This document shows positions 12,622 to 13,416 of a stretch of DNA of 64,000 nt, piece after piece; position 1 is the stretch's first letter; every line of letters starts with the position of its first letter. This stretch comes from Sulfurimonas denitrificans DSM 1251 (GTDB lineage Bacteria; Campylobacterota; Campylobacteria; Campylobacterales; Sulfurimonadaceae), in assembly GCF_000012965.1 (NCBI RefSeq), contig NC_007575.1, positions 1,054,001 to 1,118,000 of the forward strand. Direction: 5' to 3'. The position numbers and the translations under genes were made by a program. The notes below the pieces were generated by a model, which saw only the letters and a list, made by a program, of their open reading frames with translations, did not search any database and had not been told where the DNA came from.

Positions 12622-12816
12622 TTAATTTAATATCTGGATTTCAAACCCTTTTTCAAACTTGTATCTAATTTTATTGCAGTCAAGAATGTATTGAATATCT
12701 AAAAACTCATCTACTTCAAGCTCTTTTGCAGTTTTTATATTTACAACTCTGTTTTTTTTATTATCAAACTTAAAAGTAATAAATTTATTTATCTCATTGA
12801 TGATTTGCTGCGCCAT
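12622..12816 (-). CDS. Hypothetical 64-residue protein, third gene of Fur-box operon
   Basis: I do not recognise this protein. It is small and charged, with no signal peptide or membrane helix, one Cys ('DCNKIRYKFEKG'), and predicted strand-rich segments ('FITFKFDNKKNRVVNIKTA'). It starts at ATG 12816, 11 bases after the DUF2325 gene, behind 'gaggagt', a good ribosome binding site. Its operon position behind Fur-box-like sites suggests a role in iron limitation, but that is only context. Confidence 0.65.
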   Translation of the reverse strand: MAQQIINEINKFITFKFDNKKNRVVNIKTAKELEVDEFLDIQYILDCNKIRYKFEKGFEIQILN

Positions 12817-12827
12817 TTTTTACTCCT

Positions 12828-13160
12828 CTATTTATAGTTACATTTTGCATATTTATCACACTCAAAACAGTTCTGATTTTTCATAATTTTTATATATTCG
12901 TTATAAAGGCAGCTACTGTTGTTTTTTGAACACACTATTGGCAACTCTCTTTTTTTTGCTTCATTTCTAAAGTACTTCATAGCGTTGTGGTTTAAAAAAG
13001 AAGTTAGCATGACAACACATTCTATATCAATAGGTATGATTTTTTTGCATGTACTAGCTTTTTTTCTTGCATCCCAGTGGACTATTGACAAAACTCCAAG
13101 GCTCTTAAGGATTGACTCAATTGAGCTAATTTTATCTCCACCAATTACCAATACACTCAT
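12828..13160 (-). CDS. DUF2325 family protein with C-terminal Cys cluster
   Basis: The 110-residue sequence has the family pattern: 'VLVIGGDKISSIESILKSLG' start, 'VHWDARKK' (about 27-34), 'LTSFLNHNAM' and 'NEAKKRELPIVCSK'. The biochemical function of DUF2325 is not known to me. Unusual for so short a protein, it holds seven Cys (38, 48, 77, 84, 98, 101, 107), with a C-terminal CxxC-x5-C arrangement that could bind metal or an Fe-S cluster. It starts 9 bases after the preceding 54-residue gene and 11 bases before the next, so all three are one transcript, apparently under Fur control. Confidence 0.8.
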   Translation of the reverse strand: MSVLVIGGDKISSIESILKSLGVLSIVHWDARKKASTCKKIIPIDIECVVMLTSFLNHNAMKYFRNEAKKRELPIVCSKNNSSCLYNEYIKIMKNQNCFECDKYAKCNYK

Positions 13161-13169
13161 AATTTAGCC

Positions 13170-13334
13170 TTATCTCAGGGCTTGTGAAGCAAATTTACAT
13201 ATTTTAAAAGTGTCAATATGTGGATGACGCATTTTAAAGATTTTTGCTATTGGACAAACCAGTTTTTGATTTTTGGCAAATCCAGACTCTGCTATAAGTT
13301 TGTTAATTTCACTTTTTATTGATAAATCAGACAT
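13170..13334 (-). CDS. Hypothetical 54-residue protein, first gene of Fur-box operon
   Basis: A short gene with a strong ribosome binding site (AGGAG, read leftward about 8 bases before ATG 13334). The peptide is basic, starts 'MSDLSIKSEINKLIAESG' and has a C-terminal half rich in Lys, His and Ile with two Cys (27 and 46) and 'KMRHPHIDTFKICKF'. I do not recognise the family. It is the promoter-proximal gene of the operon and lies 16 bases from the nearest Fur-box-like site. Coding is supported by the tight spacing to DUF2325 and the RBS. Confidence 0.65.
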   Translation of the reverse strand: MSDLSIKSEINKLIAESGFAKNQKLVCPIAKIFKMRHPHIDTFKICKFASQALR

Positions 13335-13349
13335 TTAATATCTCCTATA

Positions 13350-13364
13350 TGATAATTGTTATCA
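13350..13364. promoter_or_regulatory. Fur-box-like site, promoter of small-protein operon
   Basis: TGATAATTGTTATCA matches the 7-1-7 Fur consensus at 13 of 14 symmetric positions. It lies 16 bases upstream of the first gene (13334, leftward), overlapping the probable promoter. Confidence 0.75.
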
Positions 13365-13401
13365 AAATAATATCAAAGAGGAGCTTAATATTTTCTGATT
13401 A

Positions 13402-13416
13402 TGATATTAATTATCA
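13402..13416. promoter_or_regulatory. Second Fur-box-like site of small-protein operon
   Basis: TGATATTAATTATCA matches 13 of 14 consensus positions. It is 37 bases from the first site. The pair lies between the glmU stop and the small-protein operon, so repression of the operon rather than of glmU is expected. Confidence 0.7.

Follow-up and report, generated by a model that had tools for sequence, protein, structure and literature searches.

The described system that most resembles the locus analysed here is the Cj1384c–Cj1383c–fldA operon of Campylobacter jejuni, in which a gene of the DUF2325 family carries a Fur repression motif. Cj1384c is iron-responsive, Fur-repressed, upregulated in a fur mutant and of unknown function; under bactericidal violet-blue light its expression rose 352-fold, the highest induction in that study, while both PerR and Fur have been linked to the gene, whose mutant was hypersensitive at the highest dose only (PMC9426514, PMC4491227, PMC3815106). 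Moreover, the Cj1384 protein contains seven Cys residues and resisted purification, and the gene clusters with katA (same sources). Among other Fur-controlled systems, the small and basic proteins FbpA, FbpB and FbpC of Bacillus subtilis have been suggested to act as RNA chaperones of the iron-sparing response, their RNA binding being unproven (PMC7430163), and in Helicobacter pylori several Fur operators act jointly on the single promoter of arsR (PMC5007355).

A further point of comparison is the tail domain shared by YqeY and GatB (PF09424, PF02637). For yeast GatB, docking puts the helical and YqeY domains at the D-loop of the tRNA, and deletion of the YqeY domain abolishes activity (PMC4027206). 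A YqeY paralogue appended to GlnRS confers higher tRNA affinity in Deinococcus, and such a paralogue has also been reported for the GlnRS of epsilon-proteobacteria (PMC3927822). No established function of YqeY itself was found in the portions of the literature at hand.

In Sulfurimonas denitrificans DSM 1251, a DUF2325 gene (B) is located between two other small genes (A and C) behind a pair of Fur boxes. The window, i.e., the whole stretch of DNA that was analysed, comprises 64,000 nucleotides (positions 1054001-1118000) of the closed, 2,201,561-bp chromosome. The initial annotation regarded the system as not yet described, which applies to A and C, for which no literature description was found, but not to B, whose homologue Cj1384c is documented as Fur-repressed. 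What is new are families A and C, the iron-starvation family of B being already known. The C. jejuni operon lacks A and C, which implies that B can work without them, whereas in the S. denitrificans window the Cj1383-like gene and flavodoxin are absent after B. Genes for B, a Cj1383-like protein and flavodoxin are consecutive in a locus of the C. jejuni type (L014), and the Cj1383-like proteins are homologous to each other (profile E 1.7e-22).

Operon structure and Fur boxes

The three tightly spaced genes of 54, 110 and 64 codons that had been proposed are indeed found on the minus strand, with gaps of 9 bp between A and B and 11 bp between B and C, and the earlier limits of 12622-13416 correspond exactly to the span of genes and boxes (Table 1). 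The gene glmU lies upstream of the operon on the same strand, and a scan 3' of C found no terminator. Conservation of the small frames was borne out by pN/pS ratios between 0.17 and 0.41 across the three genes against three Sulfurimonas relatives (0.26-0.41 for A, 0.17-0.21 for B and 0.18-0.22 for C), and in these comparisons A, B and C are all conserved under purifying selection.

Table 1. Features of the A–B–C locus (positions in the window)
Feature	Position	Strand	Description
Gene A	13170..13334	minus	54 aa; basic, three helices; undescribed family; predicted GatB/YqeY-tail-like domain
Gene B	12828..13160	minus	110 aa; DUF2325 (PF10087); predicted Rossmann-like alpha/beta fold and poorly predicted Cys-containing C-terminal tail
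Gene C	12622..12816	minus	64 aa; undescribed family; no database matches
Distal Fur box TGATATTAATTATCA	13402..13416	.	13/14; ~-82 from A start codon
Proximal Fur box TGATAATTGTTATCA	13350..13364	.	13/14; ~-30 from A start codon
Sigma-70-like promoter TTGATA-16-TATCAT	13349..13376	minus	10/12; consensus match alone; overlaps proximal Fur box
Likely ribosome-binding site AGGAG ahead of A	13342..13346	minus	read directly

Each of the boxes TGATAATTGTTATCA and TGATATTAATTATCA has a single mismatch to the Fur consensus TGATAATNATTATCA and the two are 52 bp apart, in agreement with the near-consensus pair noted initially. They are the only sites in the window with at most one mismatch, the mean number expected by chance being 1.3 even when two mismatches are allowed. 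Across the genome (2.2 Mb), about ten places reach this level, the boxes of A–B–C included; those with a clear iron or uptake context lie at ExbB/ExbD/TonB genes, at FeoB with a porin and at an ABC uptake operon, and at least two others have no such clear context, one at a ribosomal-protein operon and one between unrelated genes. The number of sigma-70-like sites in the region was not above chance in a consensus scan.

Copies of A that stand first nearly always have Fur boxes ahead of them, mostly as a pair. A box with at most one mismatch was found within 200 bp of 16 of the 23 such copies, compared with 13 of 262 neighbouring ORFs (Fisher p ~2e-13), a p-value that, like the one given below for co-occurrence of A and C, overstates independence since the genomes are related. 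The contrast itself is conservative, because the control ORFs are rich in iron genes. The spacing of 18 box pairs lying 40-70 bp apart is 51-52 bp in 12 and 58-59 bp in 5, and operons of Arcobacteraceae that begin with B exhibit a like two-box layout with a spacing of 52-54 bp. H. pylori arsR differs in having three operators, compared with the two predicted boxes at a near-fixed 52 bp in A–B–C.

The iron link suggested by the Fur sites holds well beyond the S. denitrificans genome, with boxes and iron-related neighbours also found in relatives, and A–B–C is predicted with high confidence to be a Fur-controlled iron-starvation module. The three genes would constitute one Fur-repressed operon that is switched on at iron shortage; iron-loaded Fur may bind both boxes jointly over the promoter, and the loss of iron would free it.

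A second pair of Fur-like boxes, with two mismatches each and also exactly 52 bp apart, occurs at 651-717 of the window, upstream of a TonB-dependent receptor-like gene with a start near 733. Just left of the window, a box with one mismatch at chromosome position 1052852 precedes ExbB/ExbD/TonB-like genes, which makes the left end of the window part of an iron-uptake island.

Distribution and neighbouring genes

B is present in 115 of 200 Campylobacterota genomes. For A, the numbers of genomes are 23 of 135 in Sulfurimonas and 22 of 397 in the phylum, some of these matches being weak; one match interrupted by stops (G196) is left out of the counts. A profile search located C in 16 of 394 genomes and in ten genera, so that its restriction to four Sulfurimonas genomes, as returned by a single-sequence search, proved wrong. 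A and C occur together in 10 genomes, compared with 12 and 6 that have only one of them (Fisher p ~2e-10, to be read with the reservation given above).

The trio is found as A–B–C, B–C–A or B–A–C in at least ten genomes from three Campylobacterota families. The order A–B–C occurs in six Sulfurimonas genomes, B–C–A in loci L209 and L220, and B–A–C in L143, while partial sets comprise A–C in L136 and A–B in L131, L139 and G134. Within family f7, three genomes from a single genus have B–C–A and, after it, genes for a Cj1383-like protein, a flavodoxin and a porin, an arrangement paralleled by the order DUF2325, Cj1383-like protein and flavodoxin of the C. jejuni type. The comparison of gene order in other Campylobacterota, proposed in the initial annotation, reveals a group that recurs, though reordered and at times split; judged from this distribution, the trio is a recurrent set and no accident of Sulfurimonas.

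Genes beside A encode ferritin, FeoB, a Fur-family protein, ABC and TonB uptake systems, and imelysin with a di-haem oxidoreductase. In four loci (L133, L136, L137 and L143), A is adjacent to a P-type ATPase gene, and the one such locus examined with Pfam contains HMA_2 together with a gene that weakly resembles the ferritin-like DUF2202. Loci of this composition, which we take to resemble ferrosome operons, are possibly ferrosome operons of Campylobacterota. Small membrane-like genes accompany the P-type ATPase, HMA_2 and ferritin-like genes at these four loci. Furthermore, a Cj1383-related family of ~250 aa recurs nearby (L130, L132, L134, L136 and L146), and the one member tested had no match in Pfam.

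Protein A as a putative relative of YqeY

Protein A is basic (median pI 9.8) and has no match in Pfam, NCBIfam or PDB sequences; PF02637 and PF09424 matched none of its 34 members. The AF2 model of A (pLDDT 93.7) consists of helices at residues 3-17, 23-36 and 42-53, and the structures that match it best are YqeY C-terminal domains from three species, with Z scores of 8.3, 7.8 and 7.1, although helical bundles can reach Z ~8 by chance, and rmsd values of 1.4-1.6 over 52-53 of the 54 residues. Yeast GlnRS comes next, with its tRNA-binding domain (Z 6.1). In hhalign, residues 1-53 of A align with residues 95-147 of a profile of 25 Campylobacterota YqeY proteins, i.e., in the register of the structural match, with a score of 22.8 over 49 columns and a probability of just 19%. 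The maximum in 100 column shuffles was 15.0, and the best of 39 other families, an unrelated one, scored 20.3 over 21 columns only. Since fold match and profile alignment agree in register, neither being conclusive alone, a remote relation between A and YqeY is likely, and A probably belongs among the distant relatives of the YqeY/GatB-tail domain. It would share with this domain a three-helix fold, predicted in end-to-end register with the C-terminal domain of YqeY, but lacks the N-terminal YqeY domain, falls below the Pfam models and is putatively controlled by Fur boxes. The S. denitrificans genome also encodes a full YqeY and GatB.

The YqeY-like register, the part of the YqeY domain of GatB in anchoring tRNA, the YqeY paralogue reported on GlnRS, the basic charge and the lack of a detected Hfq lead us to propose, tentatively, that A binds RNA within a Fur-derepressed module. 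Hfq was not found in the S. denitrificans genome by a search that detects it in Escherichia coli and B. subtilis, and C. jejuni has neither Hfq nor ProQ. Standing alone as a small, basic protein related to the YqeY/GatB tail, A could bind tRNA, sRNA or mRNA and thereby tune translation or RNA fate in iron starvation, as has been proposed for the Fbp proteins, with which it is compared on size, charge and Fur boxes; the likeness is one of analogy and not of homology. The conserved D/H/R/T/H/N/K residues of B would serve to bind a nucleotide or a small ligand, and the protein would take part in this iron and oxidative-stress response, with C as a partner protein. That A is a free-standing YqeY-tail RNA regulator of iron starvation in Hfq-less Campylobacterota and forms a single conserved module with its partners, C and the DUF2325 protein, is improbable. 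Should A prove to bind RNA, the protein would become a candidate for mediating the response to iron post-transcriptionally, in a group in which C. jejuni has no Hfq or ProQ. In any case, A and C are two more conserved small families beside DUF2325 and, thus, testable partners for proteins of the Cj1384c type.

Proteins B and C and alternative functions

The assignment of B to DUF2325, with seven Cys residues and a terminal C-x2-C-x5-C motif, is upheld by a match to PF10087 of 56.8 bits (cut-off 33.6) over profile positions 1-87 of 94, its closest named relatives being from Sulfurimonas. Invariant polar residues in the wide alignment (A4) include D9, H28, R32, T53, H58, N59 and K69. The model of B is Rossmann-like (pLDDT 82) with a Cys tail of low confidence, and a fold search returned many Rossmann-like matches, such as ribose-binding proteins and receivers, none of them specific. 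Searches of PDB sequences gave nothing useful for A, B or C, the only match of C being a cofilin (E 0.26).

The Cys residues of A and B are central to the function suggested at first, iron or Fe–S handling. On this view, they would be ligands of iron or a cluster, and scavenging, storage or delivery of iron would be the task of the trio. The iron control in this suggestion stood, as did the two Cys residues of A, while Fe–S binding through Cys is poorly supported, since no Cys is invariant in the wide alignments of A, B and C. Fur control and iron-related neighbours, including ferritin and ferrosome-like genes, are consistent with metal handling, as are Cys 77, 84 and 101 of B, conserved to at least 90% among closer relatives, and Cys27 of A, present in most members. 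However, A has no conserved Cys other than Cys27, at which some members carry Ser or Tyr, conserved Cys residues are absent from C, and the structural matches of the confident A model include no metal-binding domains of such kind. Metal handling by the trio is considered unlikely.

Protection from oxidative stress appears about equally doubtful; here B, rich in Cys, would serve redox functions or quench ROS, a role suggested for Cj1384, and A and C would be its accessories. The strong light induction of Cj1384c, its PerR/Fur link and the sensitivity of its mutant point in this direction, together with the clustering of the C. jejuni gene with katA and the di-haem peroxidase-like genes near A elsewhere, and the three Cys residues conserved among closer relatives keep a redox role of B conceivable. 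Against this, the mutant phenotype is confined to the highest dose, the Cys residues are not invariant, and A frequently occurs without B, adjoining ferritin or uptake genes.

It is still less probable that A is a winged-helix-like DNA-binding co-regulator fine-tuning the Fur regulon: A is small, basic, three-helical and often promoter-proximal, and its weaker structural matches include the winged helices of Fur (2xig) and AhrC (2p5k), but these reach only Z 4.7 with rmsd values of 2.2-2.4, compared with Z 8.3 and rmsd 1.4 for YqeY, whose register is also backed by the profile alignment. A toxin–antitoxin pair is unlikely, because A and B are each also found without the others nearby.

No match to Pfam, NCBIfam or PDB sequences assigns protein C to a family. 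Its identification as a fragment of an EAL protein, raised by a match to RimA in NCBIfam (E 0.036), was rejected because the match is confined to one member. As a separate observation, several Sulfurimonas genomes (L035, L037 and L002) encode an EAL-domain protein immediately after A or C.
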